Source: an uncultured Tateyamaria sp. (GTDB lineage Bacteria > Pseudomonadota > Alphaproteobacteria > Rhodobacterales > Rhodobacteraceae). Taken from it: 64,000 bases of DNA. This document shows positions 1 through 8,049 of the stretch, piece after piece (positions within the stretch are counted from its first letter, which is position 1; every line of letters starts with the position of its first letter). The notes beneath the pieces were generated by a model. That model was given only the letters and a program-made list of their open reading frames with translations. It was not told the origin of the DNA and searched no databases. Made by a program: the position numbers and the translations under genes. Location: positions 163,186 through 227,185 of the forward strand of contig NZ_CANNDO010000006.1 in NCBI RefSeq assembly GCF_947503385.1, in the 5' to 3' direction.

Positions 1-207
1 GGAGGGGAAACCTGGTCGAATGTCGGAGGCATCACCCTACTGCAGAACTCTGTTTGAGCGGTGCCTCAGAAAAGCTGTGCGCAGCCCAATACGGACATTC
101 ATCTAGCGACCACAGGCGGCCTGGATGCGGACGTTGCTGACGTTCGCTGCTGTTGCGCCAAGGTCCGCTTTGGCTGCCTACTTATCATAGACAAACCTGA
201 ATTTGGG
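1..207. other. left-edge noncoding sequence
   Basis: No convincing gene is seen here; short open frames lack ribosome binding sites. The segment carries the word GCGCCAAGGTC at 155-165, which recurs at 1833-1843 on the far side of the next gene. Composition is intermediate between the AT-rich genes to the right and the GC-rich core. Confidence 0.5.
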
Positions 208-1656
208 CTACCTAGCAAGGAAGCCTTTGACACCGTTTCGAATTGAATCAAACCCAGTAAGATCGTTGGAGTAAACGATATGCCGAAGGTGACGAGTGTC
301 AAATGGGATATCACCTGTGCTTTGAGTTAGTAGTAGAATCTTCTTTCCAAGTGTGTGGCCAATACCAAGCTCGTAGTACACATTTGGGTTCTTACCCGTC
401 ACGTCTGCTATCATGAATTCTGACTTCACGATAGCATTCCAAACGTCCTCCATTACGTTCTCGCCATGCATTTCATCTGCTCGAATCGTAGATATGCCTT
501 CGTCTGCGAGAACTTCTTTGAGAATTTTGGATACAGTGTCTGACCAGTTTTCGCCAAACGGCATTATTACGAAACAGGTGGACTTGTTAATTCCCGTGTC
601 GCGTCCAGAGAAAATGGGGTCAACTATCATACTGTTTATCCTTCGCTGGTGAAGATATCGAGCCAGTGGCGAGAAGTTTCGACACGCTCGAGAGACAAGC
701 GTTGCCCCATAACCGAAGCTAGAGTGGGATACCGAGTCGAAGACAAATACAAGTACCCCAAGAACTTCGTTGTCATAAACTACCGGGGAAAGCGTTATCC
801 GATCATACTCCCCGAACCCTATCGATGAAATCGAAGATAGTGCGTTGCAAAAGGCGCTGTGCAGTTCTGAGTTTTGCTCGATGTGTTTATGTCCGCTGTG
901 CCTGATATCACCGAAGTACCGCTCGAACTCATCCTCTCGCGAGAACTTTAGCCTTTTGCCTCCAATAATGTATGGGCGCTCTCGTTTTTTCGGAGCGTTC
1001 AGCGTCGCATACTCTAGAAACACAGAATCCGTGTCGATCACCGCAAAAGCACATAGCTTTGCCCCCAAAGACTTCGCGAGTATCCTAGTTAGTTTGATGG
1101 CAAAAGTTCCCGGAAGGATCGATTGGTCCCGCGCCATCTGATACAAGCTTTCCACATCCGACAGGCCGCGCTCGACAGACTTGGAAACCATTTCCTTCTT
1201 CGAAGATATAAAGTCGTTCACTAAAAAGTCGCAGAATGCCTTTACGGCAAAAGCTTCGGTCTCATCGGCAGGTTCAATATAAGCTACAACTTGGGCCTTG
1301 TAGCCATCGCTGGTGGATGTCAAAAATCCGGGATCGAGTTGCGTAGCTTTGGAGTGGATTGCGACAAGATTGTCCATCGACTGAAGGTCGCTTATCGGCC
1401 TCGGAATGTGTCCTCCGCCATCCGTCAAGCTATAGAAAACGTCACCCTCCCCACTTCGAGTTCGGATAATGATCTTTTCAATGCCAAGCCTATCTACAAC
1501 GTTCTTATTGTAGCGATGAAAGTTTAATACGGCAGAACTAAGCGGATCGCCATGAACAGCAGCAGAACTGCTTCGACTAAGACGAGTTCTGTCACGTGCC
1601 AAAAAATGTAATAGGTTTGTGACTTCTATTGGCACTTTGGCGCATCCAAGCTTCAT
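208..1656 (-). CDS. GAF domain protein with C-terminal TIR-like / nucleoside deoxyribosyltransferase-like domain
   Basis: The protein (482 residues from the start chosen here) has a poorly characterised N-terminal region, a GAF-like sensor fold around residues 180-315, and a C-terminal Rossmann-type domain at about 358-482. That last domain carries FVIMPFGE (362-369), RADE (392-395) and DVTGKNPNVYYELG (418-431), the signature of a large bacterial family usually described as TIR-like or deoxyribosyltransferase-like; the conserved Glu429 sits where such folds place their catalytic acid. Related domains cleave nucleotides or bind them in defence proteins, but the activity here is inference. The ATG at 1654-1656 is preferred; the frame stays open up to 1839, but the extra 61 codons read through repeat-like intergenic DNA. 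The gene lies on the same strand as the NACHT gene upstream and is similarly AT-richer than the core. No transmembrane segment is seen. Confidence 0.72.
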   Translation of the reverse strand: MKLGCAKVPIEVTNLLHFLARDRTRLSRSSSAAVHGDPLSSAVLNFHRYNKNVVDRLGIEKIIIRTRSGEGDVFYSLTDGGGHIPRPISDLQSMDNLVAIHSKATQLDPGFLTSTSDGYKAQVVAYIEPADETEAFAVKAFCDFLVNDFISSKKEMVSKSVERGLSDVESLYQMARDQSILPGTFAIKLTRILAKSLGAKLCAFAVIDTDSVFLEYATLNAPKKRERPYIIGGKRLKFSREDEFERYFGDIRHSGHKHIEQNSELHSAFCNALSSISSIGFGEYDRITLSPVVYDNEVLGVLVFVFDSVSHSSFGYGATLVSRACRNFSPLARYLHQRRINSMIVDPIFSGRDTGINKSTCFVIMPFGENWSDTVSKILKEVLADEGISTIRADEMHGENVMEDVWNAIVKSEFMIADVTGKNPNVYYELGIGHTLGKKILLLTQSTGDIPFDTRHLRHIVYSNDLTGFDSIRNGVKGFLAR

Positions 1657-2161
1657 AGTTTCTGGAGTCAGTGTATCTTCTGCGCTTTGGTTGGCAATCG
1701 CTGGTTGCCGATTGCAGTAGAAATACCTCAACGGTGACTGGCACGTTTGGTTCGCAAAACCCGCAACGCAGACATCTGTAAGTGACGCAGCATCCAGAAG
1801 TATGGGCTCTGTCCCGACATTGGCTGCATACCGCGCCAAGGTCGGCGCGCAGCCCGAAGCGGACTTTGCGAGGAGAGCAGAGTCGGCATGTGTTGCAGAG
1901 GGCCGTGTGGGAGCCGGTCATTCGCCGCATGTGCGATAGCGCTCTAAAACGCATACGGAAGCGGACGTTCAGTTTCCATAGAACTCGCACAGCACTCTAT
2001 ACGGGAGCAAGTCGGCTTCGAACTCATGGTTACGAGGCTGCAAAGAACACGTATCGCGTAGAACCTGCATTGGCTGGAAACGGCCATCCGTAAGGACTGT
2101 CGTCAATCGCGACTATTTCCAAGCGTCTTACAATAGCGTGCAACCTGTGAGTACACAATTG
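1657..2161. other. intergenic region between the two defence-like genes
   Basis: About 500 bases without a supportable gene. The part around 1810-2000 is GC-richer than its neighbours and contains words such as GCGCCAAGGTC (1833-1843) and several GCGGAC repeats that resemble the left-edge segment. It probably carries the promoter of the TIR-like gene and the 3' end of the NACHT transcript, but no clear promoter or terminator was recognised. Confidence 0.45.
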
Positions 2162-4489
2162 CTAAGCCTGTAAAATTCGACGCGCAAATTTTGGGCTCGG
2201 ACTTTCCAAAAAGCGTCTGACCTCGGCCGATTTCCCCGAAACGGACTTCCAGATAGTATCGTTTGCCACACCTGGAACTTGAACAATAAAGCCTGTTTTT
2301 TCAAGGGTCCTAATTACTGACTTGACCTCATCATGTAGATGAGGCGCATTACCACTTAGTAAGGCCTTCTCAACACGAGGGCCAGACTGCTCATATGTCT
2401 TCCTTAGGACATCATAAACAATCTGTTCAGCAACGTTCTTAAAAGTCATTTTTTGCTCAACTAGGTCAGACTCCCGATTAACTGCTAACTCTACTTCACA
2501 ACCGCTCATAGACCCAAACTTGAGAGCTTGACTTCCTACCGCTAAAATCTGCTCACATACACATTCAGAAAATACTGGCAGTAGGCTGTCATCCTCGACA
2601 TAGTCAAAAATGATTTTTTCAAAATAACAATTATGAAATTGAATCCGTGAATAGTTTTCTCTAACTTTTTCCAAAATAAGAGTGCTTACATCACAGTTGG
2701 AAATCTCAATGTGTGCACCCTTGTAGGGAGTGCCAAAATAGATCATCGAGTGTAAGAGGTCGAGTTGTGAGTGATTGTCTTGAGATTTATTGTTAATGAA
2801 CGATAGAAAAGGAGAGCATTTGTCGGCGTCAAAAACGACTTCACTAAGCGTTTCAATTCCGGCAATGCCAAGCGGGTTTTTAATGCCAACATACGCGTTA
2901 AGTCGAAAATCTGCATAGTCTTGGAATAAGTTACTTAAATAGGTGGCTGAACAAACGTCCACGAAGTCAGGAGACATAAAATTCTTGGACTCGATTGATA
3001 CCTGCGGCGAGTTGCGCGTGCTAGCTTCAAATCTCATCGACTCAGCTTGAACAAGGCCGGGAAGTCGCATCAACTCACCGAGTACAACGCCTTCTGGTTC
3101 ATCGCCAAAAACATTCCGATAGGTTTCTGTAAGATCTGTAGTCGTGATAGGGCCAACTCCACTCCCACGCTTTCTAGCCACTGTAGCCAATTCACCATAA
3201 ATCTCCAGAAGGTCCTTTTTTATCAACGGCAACATATCGATTTGATCGACTTCCCGTTGACAAAATCTGTCAAGTAACAGTTTCCAACCAACGGAAGCAT
3301 CAAGTGTAGATATTTCGCCTAGACTTTTTCTGGAATCCAAAACGGCCAGATAGCCAAGCAACAAGGGGCGTCTAGGTAACCAGTCAGGCGGTTGAAAGTT
3401 TGCATTATACTTTTGAAGAAAACGGGTCAGTTCTACTTCAGTTGCAATGTCGCTGAGCTCCAGTTGTTCCCAACTTTCATTCACGCCCAAGCAAGCCTTG
3501 GCCTCTTCAAAGGTCGGGAAGAAGTGCGATCTTCCAGCAATTACTATTACTGCATTTTCAGGGCTTTCAGAAACAAGTCTTCTAACTACCAATAGCGCTT
3601 GCCGTCGAATATCAAAGTACTTTTCATCTCTTCGCAGTGAGAGGCGGGGGACCATCTCATCGAAACCATCAATCAAAAGCGTGACATAACCTGCTCGCCA
3701 GGCACGTATCAGCGGTTCCCCAAGATCTCTGACACCAATCCTATCAGCATGCCTTCGCAACGCTTCGTCTGGTGACTCCAGGTTTGCGAAATCTCTTAGG
3801 TTAAGTGCAACAGGAAACGTCTCTTTTCGTCCAGAGGTGTGTGCCTTTGCGAGATGAAGGAATAACTCCCTCATGTGCATGCTCTTGCCAGTGCCAAAAT
3901 CACCCAATAAGAGAACGCGATTTACAGACCCTTTATCAATCCACGATTTCAGAACATCGAGCTGAATTGGTTTTTTCTTCTTTCCGTTGCCAATTCTTGA
4001 TAAACTTGTTTGGACAAAGAAATCGGTTTCAAAATCCTGGCTTTCACGAAATAAATCTACGGCACTTCCAAAGCGATAGTGTGATCGCGCAGATAGATAT
4101 TTTGCGCTATCGATGACACGCGAAACAAACTGTCTATAGCTTTGATGCCTGATATTGCTTGGGTAAGTTCGTAGTAGCTCTCTCTGCTCAGGTGCAAGAT
4201 CGAATTTAGTGATGAACCATCCTGTAATTGGTTTTGATCCCCGAAATTCCCTTTGCAACTCAGAGATACGTTTCCGAAGCTTGTCAAGGTCATGGGCAGC
4301 TTTCGACTTTTTCTGTGAGACGGTAACCTCAACGACGTGTACAACTAGATCAGTTTCATAGTACCCATCGTGTTCGATCCCGTCGATAATGTAATTGATC
4401 CTCCGGTCTGAATATGGGCTAAAAATCTGATCACAGATTCTGATGATCTGAGCTTCGAAGTTCTTTTCATCGAGTAGTGCTTTGTCCAC
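2162..4489 (-). CDS. NACHT-domain NTPase with possible nuclease-like N-terminus (bacterial NLR-like)
   Basis: A 775-residue STAND-type P-loop NTPase. Walker A is GDFGTGKS (196-203) and Walker B is LLIDGFDE (271-278); the D-G-F-D-E form of Walker B is typical of NACHT domains. Residues 1-130 look like a restriction-endonuclease-like fold: acidic residues at 41-47, then VVEVTVSQKK at 52-61. The canonical ExK is not exact (E-V-T with lysines displaced to 60-61), so nuclease activity is uncertain. After the NTPase come helical sequence, a short stretch resembling pentapeptide or leucine repeats (about 590-660), and a winged-helix-like tail. Bacterial NACHT proteins of this layout are known to protect against phage, the N-terminus acting as effector and the C-terminus as sensor; that role is inferred. 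Base composition is clearly more AT-rich than the core genes, indicating horizontal origin. Confidence 0.8.
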   Translation of the reverse strand: MDKALLDEKNFEAQIIRICDQIFSPYSDRRINYIIDGIEHDGYYETDLVVHVVEVTVSQKKSKAAHDLDKLRKRISELQREFRGSKPITGWFITKFDLAPEQRELLRTYPSNIRHQSYRQFVSRVIDSAKYLSARSHYRFGSAVDLFRESQDFETDFFVQTSLSRIGNGKKKKPIQLDVLKSWIDKGSVNRVLLLGDFGTGKSMHMRELFLHLAKAHTSGRKETFPVALNLRDFANLESPDEALRRHADRIGVRDLGEPLIRAWRAGYVTLLIDGFDEMVPRLSLRRDEKYFDIRRQALLVVRRLVSESPENAVIVIAGRSHFFPTFEEAKACLGVNESWEQLELSDIATEVELTRFLQKYNANFQPPDWLPRRPLLLGYLAVLDSRKSLGEISTLDASVGWKLLLDRFCQREVDQIDMLPLIKKDLLEIYGELATVARKRGSGVGPITTTDLTETYRNVFGDEPEGVVLGELMRLPGLVQAESMRFEASTRNSPQVSIESKNFMSPDFVDVCSATYLSNLFQDYADFRLNAYVGIKNPLGIAGIETLSEVVFDADKCSPFLSFINNKSQDNHSQLDLLHSMIYFGTPYKGAHIEISNCDVSTLILEKVRENYSRIQFHNCYFEKIIFDYVEDDSLLPVFSECVCEQILAVGSQALKFGSMSGCEVELAVNRESDLVEQKMTFKNVAEQIVYDVLRKTYEQSGPRVEKALLSGNAPHLHDEVKSVIRTLEKTGFIVQVPGVANDTIWKSVSGKSAEVRRFLESPSPKFARRILQA

Positions 4490-5008
4490 GTTTCTCTCAT
4501 TGGCATCTACAGGTTCAGTTGGCGTTATGCTCAGTCGACATGCTTGTCGGACAATTGTCTTGAGTCAAACTGTTTAGGTCGACTTCCAGTCTACTTTTTT
4601 GATCGCTGTGCTAGCGCTCTAGAGAAGTTGGCTCTTCGATGAATAGTAGAATGTACCTTGCGACTGCGTCCTTGGAGTTGTTGTGCTTCGCGAGCAAAGC
4701 GCAGGAGCTGCCGTTCGTTTTCATTGAACGAATGACCGTATAGGAGACGCAGCGACATTCCCTGCAGAGAGGCGGCGAGTTTCCGCAACCGGGTGCGCTC
4801 GCCTCAAGTCAATCCCAAAGTTCGCAACTTTGCAAAGCCCGCTTTCTGCGCAAAACGCATTGCGGGATTGTTGTGGAATTTGCGCACTGGAACGATATCC
4901 CGTCTTCGCTGAGGTAAACTTACGCAACCCTAGAAAGCTGACCTAATACGCTGGTTTTATTGCTGAATTTTGGTACGGTGACCCCGACAATCCAAAGGGG
5001 GTTTGCAC
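4490..5008. other. intergenic region upstream of the NACHT gene
   Basis: About 520 bases lacking a supportable gene. It separates the divergent NACHT gene and small-gene cluster and must hold both promoters. The left 100 bases are AT-rich like the NACHT gene, while 4620-4930 is mixed and reminiscent of the 1810-2000 segment. A good ribosome binding site (AAGGGGG at about 4995-5001) precedes the next gene. Confidence 0.45.
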
Positions 5009-5527
5009 ATGCTTTCGATCACACAAGCCACCCAGCTTTTGGCTGAGATTTATGACGTCCCTGAAAGCGGTCTCATGACGACAAAGGACGCGCTGCGCCG
5101 ATCCGGCATGTTCCCGACCGCACAAGGTCGGTCGATCCCGCCTACAACGCCTGTACGCATTGCCCTGTTGATTATTGGTCTGGGCGTCACCTATCCCGAA
5201 CGTATCGCCGAACTCGCGGACCTGCGCCGCTTCGTTTACCGGCCCGGTGACATGACCGCGCAAGTGACACTGGGTGACGTGTTGTCTGAAATCGTCAAAG
5301 GTCTGTTCGAGAACCCCGGCAAGGCCGTCGACATGCACCTGATTATGACCGCCACAGAGGCCCCGTGGGCGACGCTACAGGGGCCGTCAGGCGTCGTGAT
5401 GCAGTTCGGGGAGGTCGGCAACGGCGGAGGCTTTGTGACGCGTCAGGCAACCGTTTCCTTGGCCCCCTTGGCGTTGTTCTGCGAAGCCGCGCGCAACTTA
5501 TCGCACCCGTACAGTGTCACCGGATGA
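5009..5527 (+). CDS. hypothetical protein, first gene of a coupled small-gene cluster
   Basis: A 172-residue soluble protein that I do not assign to a named family. It has no signal peptide or membrane segment. The N-terminal 50 residues are helical and look like a DNA- or protein-binding module; the remainder is mixed alpha/beta with a glycine-rich stretch (FGEVGNGGG). The ATG at 5009 is chosen because AAGGGGG lies about eight bases upstream; a TTG two codons earlier is less well placed. Its stop overlaps the start of the next gene in ATGA, so the two are translationally coupled. Proteins of this type tend to occur in integrated elements of Rhodobacteraceae, consistent with its place beside a tRNA-bounded island. 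Confidence 0.65.
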   Translation: MLSITQATQLLAEIYDVPESGLMTTKDALRRSGMFPTAQGRSIPPTTPVRIALLIIGLGVTYPERIAELADLRRFVYRPGDMTAQVTLGDVLSEIVKGLFENPGKAVDMHLIMTATEAPWATLQGPSGVVMQFGEVGNGGGFVTRQATVSLAPLALFCEAARNLSHPYSVTG

Positions 5528-5730
5528 TCCCGCCGCGCCTTCATATCTTGCCGGAAAGTCTCGACGTCCTGCGCGGGGCAAAGGCGATTGCCGGGTTTCT
5601 GAACACGACCCCGTCGCGTGTGTACCGTTTGCACCGTGCGAAACAGCTACCGTTGTTCACTGAAGGGGCAACGCTGTGTGGGCGCAAGACGACGCTCACG
5701 GCATGGATTGAACGGCAAGAGGTTGGGTGA
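5524..5730 (+). CDS. small excisionase/MerR-like DNA-binding protein
   Basis: A 68-residue protein whose core (GAKAIAGFLNTTPSRVYRLH, then a short wing and TLTAWIERQE) matches the winged helix-turn-helix pattern of excisionase-like and phage packaging-type DNA-binding proteins. The ATG overlaps the TGA of the preceding gene, which fixes the start although the frame is open further upstream. Such proteins often act as directionality factors or small regulators in integrated elements; which of these applies is not shown. It is followed after one base by another small gene, giving a tight three-gene unit. Confidence 0.68.
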   Translation: MIPPRLHILPESLDVLRGAKAIAGFLNTTPSRVYRLHRAKQLPLFTEGATLCGRKTTLTAWIERQEVG

Positions 5731-5731
5731 A

Positions 5732-5971
5732 ATGACTGTTGCGGAAAGCCTTGGTTTACACGAAAACCTTGCGGGCCTTTTGATGCGGATCGGAATAGCC
5801 CTGTCGAACCCTGCGTCGGATCGTAACGCCGCTGGGGCGGTCCTGCGCGACGAACAGTGCCGTGCAGCCCTTGCAACGCTTCAGGGGACGAGCGACGCGT
5901 TCTGTGACGCTCTAATCGAAACGTCGGACGCGATTGCAGCGGTCAACGCGGACCGTCGCAAGCTGAACTGA
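5732..5971 (+). CDS. hypothetical small protein, third gene of the cluster
   Basis: A 79-residue, mostly helical, acidic protein of unrecognised family with no membrane segment. Start ATG follows the previous stop by one base (TGA-A-ATG), so it is probably translated by reinitiation; the frame is open upstream but the extra codons overlap the HTH gene. The gene ends exactly where the convergent exported protein gene ends, leaving no intergenic space. Function is unknown; its coupling to an excisionase-like gene suggests it belongs to the same element. Confidence 0.58.
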   Translation: MTVAESLGLHENLAGLLMRIGIALSNPASDRNAAGAVLRDEQCRAALATLQGTSDAFCDALIETSDAIAAVNADRRKLN

Positions 5972-6700
5972 TCACCAGTTACACGTCTCGCGCAGTTCAG
6001 CCACGGCGTTTTCGACGCCCTGAATATTGAATGTCGCTGTGATCGGGTTTTCGTTGTAGGGCGTAAATCGCAGTGTCAGCTTCTCGCCGTCGAACATAGA
6101 CTTAATCACCGGTATCGAACGCCGTCCGTTCCAAAGGCCCAGAGCACGATTGTCGGTGCTGCCGATCATGTTCAGCCTCTGCGCTTTCTTGTCGTCCACT
6201 CGAAAGTCGACGCGTCCGAAGCCCTGTGTATCTGACATAAATTCACTTGTGTTTAGGATCAGTGAAGTCGTGTTCTCCATGCACCGGAGCAATACACTAG
6301 CGGTGATGCTGTTGCCGTAATTGTCCGATCCGACAACGCTGCGGTTTGTTGAAACAAGCACAATTTTGCTGTCGTCAATTGCGTTGGTACTCGTTCTGAT
6401 CGACCAGCGACCCGTGTTTTTTCCGTTCTTCGCGTCATTTGCTTTTGCGGCGCTCTCTGCAACCTTGCGAACGCACATAGCGTGCGTCTCGCCTTTGTTC
6501 GGAAACTGAACGTCACAGATTTCGGCACCGGCTATAGGTTCAGGTGCAGGTTTCGGTGTAGGCGACAGGGCTGTGTAACAGGTTAGCTTGTCAGCGTCGG
6601 TTTCTTTCGCAGCACATGCGTTCAACTGCGCGTCAGTCGCCCCGGCCAAGCCGGCACCGGCAACAGTACACAAGGCAATAGCTGCAATTGTCGTTCTCAT
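5972..6700 (-). CDS. exported VasI/TagO-like protein
   Basis: A 242-residue protein with a clear Sec signal peptide (residues 1-21, cleavage near AGLAGA). A short cysteine-containing segment (ACAAKETDADKLTCYTAL) is followed by a Pro-rich linker and a C-terminal domain of about 150 residues resembling VasI/TagO proteins linked to type VI secretion: an IDDSK start, a central LRCMENTT segment, RFTPYNENPITATF and a terminal cysteine in CNW. No other type VI secretion gene is in the window, so it is an orphan; such orphans are found in phage-like and accessory regions. GGGAAC just upstream of the ATG can serve as ribosome binding site. It is convergent with the small-gene cluster. Confidence 0.68.
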   Translation of the reverse strand: MRTTIAAIALCTVAGAGLAGATDAQLNACAAKETDADKLTCYTALSPTPKPAPEPIAGAEICDVQFPNKGETHAMCVRKVAESAAKANDAKNGKNTGRWSIRTSTNAIDDSKIVLVSTNRSVVGSDNYGNSITASVLLRCMENTTSLILNTSEFMSDTQGFGRVDFRVDDKKAQRLNMIGSTDNRALGLWNGRRSIPVIKSMFDGEKLTLRFTPYNENPITATFNIQGVENAVAELRETCNW

Positions 6701-7163
6701 GACGTTTGTTCCCTTCCGTACAACTCTTTATGGTTGCATTTCTGGCCGTGCACACGAACAGGATCAAGGTACTTGCGAGCAATACCGTTTGAACATGTGC
6801 TGCGTATCCAGTGATCCGAACAACCCATCAGCCATCTGCTGAAATACGTCTTCGATCATATCGAGCTTGGGCTTCAGCGTAGAATGCGAGCGGCGTTTGG
6901 TTTGCGCGAACGATCAGGGGAGGGGGGCAAATAATCGCAGACCCTTGCGGTCAACGACCGGCCCCCACTAGCAACGCGAATTTTTGTAAAAAATCGTCTT
7001 ATCACGCTTTGTGATGAAAATCGTCGATACATCACGCGTGGTGAATTGCAGTTCCGGGGGTGTTTCTCACTTTCAGTTCCGATGGCTGATTTTTCACCGA
7101 TTGTCGCGGTCCTGATCGACGCGGGACAATGCAGGTCGATCTATCAACAAAGGACCAACGGAC
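6701..7163. other. intergenic region with operator-like palindromes
   Basis: About 460 bases with no supportable gene. The left part contains the promoter region of the exported protein. The right part holds two ATCAC-N5-GTGA palindromes (separate entry) in an AT-rich stretch that looks like a promoter reading right toward the small gene at 7164. Confidence 0.5.
7001..7045. promoter_or_regulatory. pair of palindromic operator-like sites
   Basis: Site 1 at 7001-7015 is ATCAC-N5-GTGAT, a perfect 5-bp inverted repeat. Site 2 at 7031-7045 is ATCAC-N5-GTGAA, with one mismatch. Their starts are exactly 30 bp apart, about three helical turns, and each is preceded by AAAATCGTC (6990-6998 and 7017-7025). 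Two in-phase sites in front of a gene are typical of a dimeric phage- or plasmid-type repressor; the regulator is unidentified. Confidence 0.55.
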
Positions 7164-7316
7164 ATGGACCATATCGACCTCGACCGACTGCGCCGCGAAG
7201 TGAACGAACACATAGACGACGCCGACTTTGAACCTGTCGTCACTTCAATTTTGACAAACTCACCCGATGTGGCGCGAATGCTGATCGACTTTGCGATACG
7301 TGTTCTCGTGAAGTGA
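7164..7316 (+). CDS. very small hypothetical protein
   Basis: A 50-residue acidic protein (MDHIDLDRLRREV at its start, ending AIRVLVK) that looks like two amphipathic helices. AAGGA lies about nine bases before the ATG, which is the main reason for calling it. It lies downstream of the paired palindromes and so could be the gene they control. No family is recognised; it may be a small regulator or antitoxin-like protein, but nothing in the sequence proves that. Confidence 0.45.
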   Translation: MDHIDLDRLRREVNEHIDDADFEPVVTSILTNSPDVARMLIDFAIRVLVK

Positions 7317-7418
7317 TCGACAAGGGCGTGTAAACGCGCCTACAGAGGCCCTTGCGCTGATTGCCTTCCCGTATCCCCTGAAGCCGCGTGTGGCCGCTTC
7401 AGGGGGCGTGTGGTCGAA

Positions 7419-7586
7419 CTAGACCGGGTCGCACAAGACCCAAGCTATGCACTCGACAACGCATCCGATTTCATCGCGCTTGTCTTGCACGCGTTCAATC
7501 AGACCCATCGGGGTCGACAGCTCGCCGGTCGCATGTGCGTCGTGAAAGCGCCGCGCGTCAGCGCCGAAAAACACCACTTGTTTCAT
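7419..7586 (-). CDS. very small hypothetical protein
   Basis: A 55-residue protein beginning MKQVVFFGADARRFHDAH. The start is fixed by AAGGAAAA, six to eight bases before the ATG; a longer upstream reading lacks such a site. It has no signal peptide and no recognised domain. It follows another tiny gene on the same strand (ending at 7670), and both lie between the operator region and the tRNA gene, so they likely belong to the integrated element. Confidence 0.48.
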   Translation of the reverse strand: MKQVVFFGADARRFHDAHATGELSTPMGLIERVQDKRDEIGCVVECIAWVLCDPV

Positions 7587-7669
7587 TTCGATTTTCCTTG
7601 TGTTGCGGCGCGACATTGCGCCTGCAAAAGGGATTGCAGACGGCGGGGCACTTGTGCGGCGAAAGTTGT

Positions 7670-7828
7670 TTAGTCTCGATCCGGCGGTGGTATCTCGCGT
7701 CGTTCGGCCCAGTCTTTTACGACGCTGTAAATGTCCTGCGCGGTCGGGGTCGAACGCCATCTTTCGAGTTCAGCCAACGCGTCGCGCAAGTCGTCAGGGA
7801 CGAAGGTGGGCCATTTCGGTCCGTTCAA
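7670..7828 (-). CDS. very small hypothetical protein with TTG start
   Basis: A 52-residue protein (start MNGPKWPTFVPDDLRDAL, end REIPPPDRD). The codon pattern and the amphipathic helix LRDALAELERWRS look like a real protein. The only start with a ribosome binding site is TTG, eight bases after AGAGG; the frame closes at TAA shortly upstream. It precedes the 55-residue gene by about 80 bases on the same strand. Family not recognised. Confidence 0.45.
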   Translation of the reverse strand: MNGPKWPTFVPDDLRDALAELERWRSTPTAQDIYSVVKDWAERREIPPPDRD

Positions 7829-7959
7829 CTGATTTGCCTCTAACCGTTACGCGACGTCACTAAACGTCGCTCGCAATGGGTACAAAAGTGGACCTCAGGT
7901 GGACCTCGATCCATTTGGAAAAATATTTTCTATGATTTTCAATGTCTTAATGAAGTCTT

Positions 7960-8049
7960 TGGCGGAGAGACAGGGATTCGAACCCTGGGTGGGCTTGCAC
8001 CCACAACGGTTTTCGAGACCGCCCCGTTCGACCACTCCGGCACCTCTCC
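7960..8049 (-). tRNA. tRNA-Ser (anticodon CGA)
   Basis: The minus strand reads a complete serine tRNA: acceptor stem GGAGAGG pairing with CCTCTCC, a long variable arm, anticodon loop CTCGAAA with anticodon CGA, T-loop GGTTCGAATCC and an encoded CCA (7960-7962). It decodes UCG. Its 3' end faces the low-GC accessory region, so it is a plausible attB site for the island. A second copy of the 3' end, which would mark the other island border, is not visible to the left within the window. Confidence 0.96.

Follow-up and report, generated by a model that had tools for sequence, protein, structure and literature searches.

The 64,000-nucleotide stretch analysed here (the window; contig NZ_CANNDO010000006.1 of an uncultured Tateyamaria sp., window position 1 being contig base 163186) carries on its minus strand a gene for a 775-residue protein that belongs, by its Walker A and Walker B motifs, to the NACHT clade of STAND NTPases. 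On balance we favour the view that this NACHT protein is a single-gene anti-phage alarm, in which the C-terminal part would sense, the NACHT module would assemble and the N-terminal nuclease domains would likely cut or nick DNA. The gene and its parts are:

2162..4489, minus strand: NACHT protein, 775 amino acids, GTG start, from the NACHT profile match, protein relatives and conservation
4082..4489, minus strand: predicted nuclease domain with a PD-(D/E)xK fold (residues 1-136), from the full-length model, a model of the domain alone and PDB structure matches
4280..4330, minus strand: predicted active site (residues 54-70), in which a strand carries E54-x-T56 and the following helix K63-x3-D67-x2-K70; E12 and D41 precede it
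2720..4072, minus strand: NACHT NTPase module and its helical parts (residues 140-590)
3881..3904, minus strand: Walker A (residues 196-203, with K202)
3656..3682, minus strand: Walker B (residues 270-278), from conservation
2474..2710, minus strand: seven predicted beta strands (residues 594-672), possibly a pentapeptide-like solenoid and likely part of the sensor, from the model and sub-threshold pentapeptide matches
2204..2434, minus strand: predicted helices and a two-strand wing (residues 686-762), likely a winged helix, from the model and sub-threshold winged-helix matches

The reading frame stays open over 800 codons, and its product matches the NACHT profile PF05729 over residues 191-308 (E 5.2e-7, 30.1 bits against a cut-off of 26.7). 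A protein search returned 49 matches including the protein itself, one at 63% identity, seven at 37-49% and forty at 25-37%, and 39 of the 48 relatives span at least 90% of the query; a scan of one-genome-per-species contigs gave 55 loci. Conservation was read from 79 aligned rows, made up of 42 of the 49 protein matches and 37 locus open reading frames (ORFs) of at least 740 amino acids, a length limit by which frameshifted or cut copies go uncounted. Seven shorter, longer or distant matches (P0006, P0019, P0037, P0046-P0049) were left out, and a thinned set of 64 rows served to list positions conserved to at least 95%. Another 18 rows were drawn from 20 loci in a phage, a plasmid, viral contigs and further genomes (L095 and L096 yielding none); these were not de-duplicated and include the near-copies L092 and L093, L100 and L118 from a single location, as well as L059 and L060, which resemble L007 and L039 already within the 79. 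Walker A residues G199, G201, K202 and S203 and Walker B residues D274, G275 and E278 are invariant in all 79 rows, and D277 is kept in 78, which bears out the NACHT-type Walker pair that an earlier reading of the letters, the original prediction, had claimed. Models and matches give the protein the three-part build of N-terminal domain, NTPase and C-terminal domain, of which the first would be the effector and the last the sensor.

Modelled alone, the N-terminal domain reaches a predicted local distance difference test (pLDDT) score of 88.1 and has the predicted alpha-beta-beta-beta-alpha-beta core of the PD-(D/E)xK nuclease superfamily. Its best structural matches are Nt.BspD6I, the small subunit of R.BspD6I and the AlwI family, all type IIS DNA nickases or restriction enzymes. 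The original prediction had placed a nuclease-like N-terminus on a bacterial NACHT protein and proposed comparison with PD-(D/E)xK folds as a check, and the predicted fold supports it. Counting rows with a residue, E12 is found in 76 of 76, E39 in 76 of 78, D41 in 78 of 78, E54 in 76 of 78 (two have Met) and T56 in 78 of 78, while the next helix keeps K63 in 77 of 78, D67 in 76 of 79 and K70 in 79 of 79; all eight are among the 13 positions at least 95% conserved in the thinned alignment. The 18 extra rows have E12 in 14 of 14, D41, E54 and T56 in 18 of 18 each and E39 in 9 of 17. Conservation in the two sets therefore suggests that E12, D41, E54 and T56 form the core, that the helix triad is usual and that E39 probably has no catalytic role.

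The family lacks the literal D...(D/E)-x-K signature and has D41-x12-E54-x-T56 instead, with Thr in the place of Lys in 78 of 78 rows. The letters of the signature do not define the fold, since active Nt.BspD6I of the same fold also has E-V-T, and what we retain for the domain is a predicted PD-(D/E)xK fold that would work like these enzymes, rather than the motif itself. The Thr likely marks a working variant of the active site, probably assisted by K63, D67 and K70 on the helix that follows. The original prediction had seen a variant effector with an imperfect ExK, an E-V-T and a lysine pair. The E-V-T and the variant nature stand, the former as a conserved E-x-T, but a damaged ExK is rejected, because E-x-T runs throughout the family and has a working precedent in Nt.BspD6I. 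K60 and K61 are present yet kept in just 24 and 35 of the 79 rows, and were the wrong lysines to propose for mutation, the conserved ones being K63 and K70.

The likeness to Nt.BspD6I extends, in letters and spacing, to the residues around this motif. An AlwI-family protein (L113) aligns to the nickase by phmmer (E 1.1e-58) and gives its letters as D456, E469-V-T471-x-S473 and E482 (numbered from A of the E418A chain 6qnz), of which we take E469 and E482 to be catalytic. The NACHT protein has D41, E54-V-T56-x-S58 and D67 at the same intervals of 13 and 13, so that D-x12-E-V-T-x-S, an upstream Glu and an acidic residue 13 past the Glu are common to both. The E418A and D456A forms of Nt.BspD6I are described as catalytically deficient (PMC6261011). 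Unlike the BspD6I and AlwI enzymes, the NACHT protein has two conserved helix lysines, followed by NACHT and sensor parts, and it shows no significant sequence match to them and no match to their profile PF09491, which gives weak hits in two of the 38 N-domains (best E 0.013). The likeness may reflect deep kinship or convergence.

By analogy with the nuclease-NACHT proteins bNACHT25 and bNACHT32 (PMC12169576), infection would be sensed by the C-terminal repeat/winged-helix end, and the NACHT module would then drive an ATP-dependent assembly. This would bring the N-terminal nuclease domains together, the gathered domains would cut or nick DNA, and the infected cell would arrest growth or die. 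Nicking by single N-domains would also be possible, because BstNBI, called identical to BspD6I in a review (PMC4081073), has a top-strand site that is active without dimerising. We infer a defence role, assembly, the sensing of a ligand, and DNA rather than RNA as the target. The repeat/winged-helix C-terminus of the original prediction agrees with the predicted folds of the model, but its profile matches are all sub-threshold.

Several results weigh against an active nuclease alarm of this kind. The N-domain aligns with L113 such that D, E and T coincide, but without significance (probability 0.65%, E 0.088), so that the link to Nt.BspD6I rests on fold and motif. Sequence searches of the PDB match no chain but tektins (E 0.71 and 0.76 with the N-domain profile), and a Foldseek search with the N-domain model gives no matches at E up to 0.001. 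The helix triad is not absolute in the 18 extra rows, where K63 is kept in 16, D67 in 14 and K70 in 15. None of the families of PADLOC-DB 2.0.0 (2023) matches the protein up to E 1, and no clear defence island surrounds the relatives in 90 flanking ORFs from 28 loci scanned with PADLOC and Pfam (at most two per side, 150-900 amino acids); each PADLOC family among the first 25 of 119 is hit by one ORF, and the Pfam names listed are mainly housekeeping. PF22722, named 'NACHT-associated inactive Restriction Endonuclease 1' (NA-iREase1), weakly matches 11 of 38 N-domains (best E 0.0021). Together with the missing classical Lys, this profile raises the view that the domain is a catalytically dead nuclease fold which merely binds nucleic acid, the true output lying elsewhere. 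We consider this very unlikely, as PF22722 does not match the NACHT protein itself even at E up to 1 (family cut-off 27 bits), few positions of the domain are conserved as well as those presumed to form the metal site, and the active nickase Nt.BspD6I has the same E-V-T. No protein of its genome matches PF22722 at E 0.001, and a literature search found no paper on the name NA-iREase. A protein search with the N-region returned one protein besides the window's own, and a BFVD search with the full-length model returned chiefly ATPases and helicases, with one phage model named NLR-like at a template-modelling (TM) score of 0.40.

The helix triad brings in a different enzyme. The motif given for arenaviruses by Morin et al. 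(PMC2940758) is E-X38-P-D-X(11,13)-E-X12-K-X3-D-X2-K, and K63-x3-D67-x2-K70 equals its K-x3-D-x2-K end, while the D41-x12-E54 spacing falls within X(11,13). The N-domain could accordingly be a metal-dependent RNA endonuclease like the arenavirus cap-snatching enzymes, with which it shares this triad and four acidic residues, and phage would be stopped by RNA cutting. The NCBIfam cap-snatching profile TIGR04202 aligns from residue 41 (E 0.0099) and matches 4 of 38 N-domains (best E 0.0071), and the endonuclease of lymphocytic choriomeningitis virus (LCMV) stands at Foldseek rank 11. The full arenavirus motif is absent, however: the family has E-X28-D-X12-E-X8-K-X3-D-X2-K, with no Pro before D41 and with 8 residues rather than 12 between E54 and K63. 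LCMV residue 104, two past E102, is Phe (mutant F104A) and not Thr (PMC2940758); the arenavirus enzyme has no E-x-T. The LCMV structural match is poor (TM 0.34, root-mean-square deviation 14.0 A) and DNA enzymes are among the nearest folds. At 16.2 bits TIGR04202 stays below its cut-off of 40, and weak family profiles are noisy on the 38 N-domains, Cas7/DevR reaching 5.4e-6 in 2 of 38 and an unrelated sigma-54 profile (E 0.0025) doing better than TIGR04202 on the same domain. No arenavirus chain is among the 50 structure matches listed for the N-domain, absence there not amounting to exclusion. Kinship with these endonucleases was rejected as the leading reading for its weak fold match, and we regard the likeness as likely convergence and an RNA-cutting alarm as unlikely, keeping RNA as a possible target because of the triad.

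The DNA-cutting or nicking alarm is predicted to be a single-gene system. When flanking ORFs of at least 80 amino acids were clustered, the NACHT gene occurred in 67 sources (the window counting twice, as itself and as part of its contig); every other family was limited to three at most. The gene is found in 1 of 20 genomes of its genus (its own) and 3 of 394 of its family (its own included), and every ORF that the N- and C-terminal profiles match is 756-814 codons long, with matches in 4 of 398 and 5 of 240 genomes. The labelled rows of a quick tree (47 rows) cover seven phyla, among them Actinomycetota, Pseudomonadota, Acidobacteriota, Planctomycetota and Chloroflexota, which cluster yet need 9 changes against a minimum of 6; a phage copy and two viral-contig copies fall among Pseudomonadota. 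This pattern is in keeping with transfer, although it is not proof of it. Pseudomonas phage Haddon (L086 13749-16049) has a near full-length relative that is annotated as a hypothetical protein; repressor, CII-like and excisionase genes lie on its left and endolysin on its right. Eight relatives are divided over two ORFs (L004, L041, L045, L046, L051, L054, L056, L057), and frameshifts or decay may thus affect several copies. A promoter and terminator scan found fewer sites than the mean of shuffles.

The gene resides in an element whose left part lies outside the window (L002 5181-13186, joined to window 1-7973):

-7898 to -6576, strand not given: tyrosine integrase, left of the window, after tamB
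-3150 to -1996, strand not given: HK97-type portal, left of the window
-2003 to -432, strand not given: prohead protease-major capsid fusion, left of the window
208..1839, minus strand: TIR-like/nucleotide-binding protein (PADLOC TIR effector E 3.1e-7; phrog_26406 E 2.8e-29)
5365..5730, plus strand: ORF with a small phage family match (phrog_18541, E 1.1e-11)
5972..6700, minus strand: VasI-like protein (type VI secretion VasI profile PF11319 E 6.7e-15; phage family phrog_1848 E 8.8e-31)
7960..7973, no strand: 14-bp direct repeat at the 3' end of tRNA-Ser, right island end; second copy at L002 5181-5194 (window coordinate -8005)
7960..8049, minus strand: tRNA-Ser (CGA), likely attachment site, the sole tRNA of the window, 3.5 kb from the NACHT gene, where similarity to relatives starts

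The left repeat lies about 30 bases past tamB, 15,965 bp from repeat to repeat; it was found with exact 12-mers, an exact 16-mer search finding nothing. Among seven loci of genus relatives with the right flank, five show similarity that begins at precisely 7960, and in a sixth the tRNA stretch is matched separately from 7960. Four relatives' loci extended to the left show no tamB or island match in 11.7-12.3 kb, bar one 31-base stretch, and so an empty tamB-tRNA site was not seen. AGTGGACCT-type repeats stand near both ends (L002 5193-5213, 5347-5367; window 7884-7897) and are possibly integrase arm sites. GC content, 56-65% from 8001 onwards, is down at 43-47% across 2001-5000, which agrees with the AT-rich setting first described; 'tRNA-bounded' holds for one end, at tRNA-Ser(CGA), but the other end is outside the window, which has no second tRNA. 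The location beside another defence-like gene is backed by the island and ORF 208-1839, where a C-terminal TIR-like/nucleoside-deoxyribosyltransferase-like domain follows a long N-terminal region; its listed start is TTG, and the true start may be downstream. This ORF is matched in 41 phage records, 35 of Streptococcus or Staphylococcus, and the eight matches listed span 20-25% of the protein. A two-gene system with it was rejected, as it has no relative among flanking ORFs of the other loci compared.

These genes suggest that the 16-kb integrative element is a defective prophage or a capsid-bearing satellite. Satellites of the capsid-forming phage-inducible chromosomal island type (cf-PICI) carry genes for integrase, portal and capsid but not the complete gene set of a phage. 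Like these or defective prophages, the island combines integrase, portal and protease-capsid genes, cargo and a tRNA site; it differs in that no terminase or tail gene was recognised among the island ORFs scanned, a scan that left out some small ORFs. As the gene sits in an element with phage genes and relatives occur in a phage and a plasmid, it could be cargo of the island that serves some purpose other than general phage defence, for instance regulating the element's own life cycle or competing with related elements. This seems quite improbable, because the flanking genes of relatives vary by locus, and the function thus appears not to be tied to one kind of element.

A further proposal, which goes beyond the single-gene alarm and which we advance tentatively as the less probable case, is that the protein represents an undescribed, widely transferred NLR-like family. 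It would combine a nickase active site (E-D-E-T) with a cap-snatching-like K-D-K helix, would nick DNA or cut RNA only once the NACHT wheel assembles, would carry a beta-solenoid/winged-helix sensor unlike known bacterial NLRs, and would travel as cargo of phages and capsid-bearing satellites. If the reading as a nuclease-armed alarm is true, the lack of a catalytic Lys in bacterial NLR-like proteins would not mean a dead nuclease, and the gene would be a compact one-gene system whose sensor end is probably of a new kind. That a phage, a plasmid and an element with capsid genes all carry such genes suggests use of NLR-like receptors by mobile elements against their rivals. No description of the family was among the papers listed in literature searches; an earlier listing in a bNACHT clade is possible, the founding paper not having been compared.

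Among known systems, the NACHT module is common to animal NLRs such as NAIP5, NLRC4, NLRP3 and NOD2, but our protein instead has a predicted N-terminal nuclease and, in the Pfam scan, no leucine-rich-repeat match. Other bacterial conflict systems built on NTPases are known to use effectors with a restriction-endonuclease fold (PMC7159879). Closest in build are bNACHT25 and bNACHT32 of clade 6, described in PMC12169576 as single proteins with an N-terminal nuclease of the PD-(D/E)XK kind and a central NACHT, in which infection leads to DNA degradation and D48A abolishes defence. The predicted fold of our N-domain agrees with that nuclease, with E-x-T in place of E-x-K. Clade 6 is described there with an NCH1 C-terminus, whereas the model here has beta repeats and a winged-helix-like end; this distinction is drawn from their published description. 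NCH1 is not among the Pfam matches of the protein or the families listed for 37 C-termini, the existence of a Pfam NCH1 model being unchecked, nor is SNaCT, the clade 14 C-terminus, among those of the protein or its 37 C-termini, no reference sequence being compared. Nuclease-NACHT defence proteins are already known, and as far as tested it is the type of active site and the C-terminus that distinguish this family.
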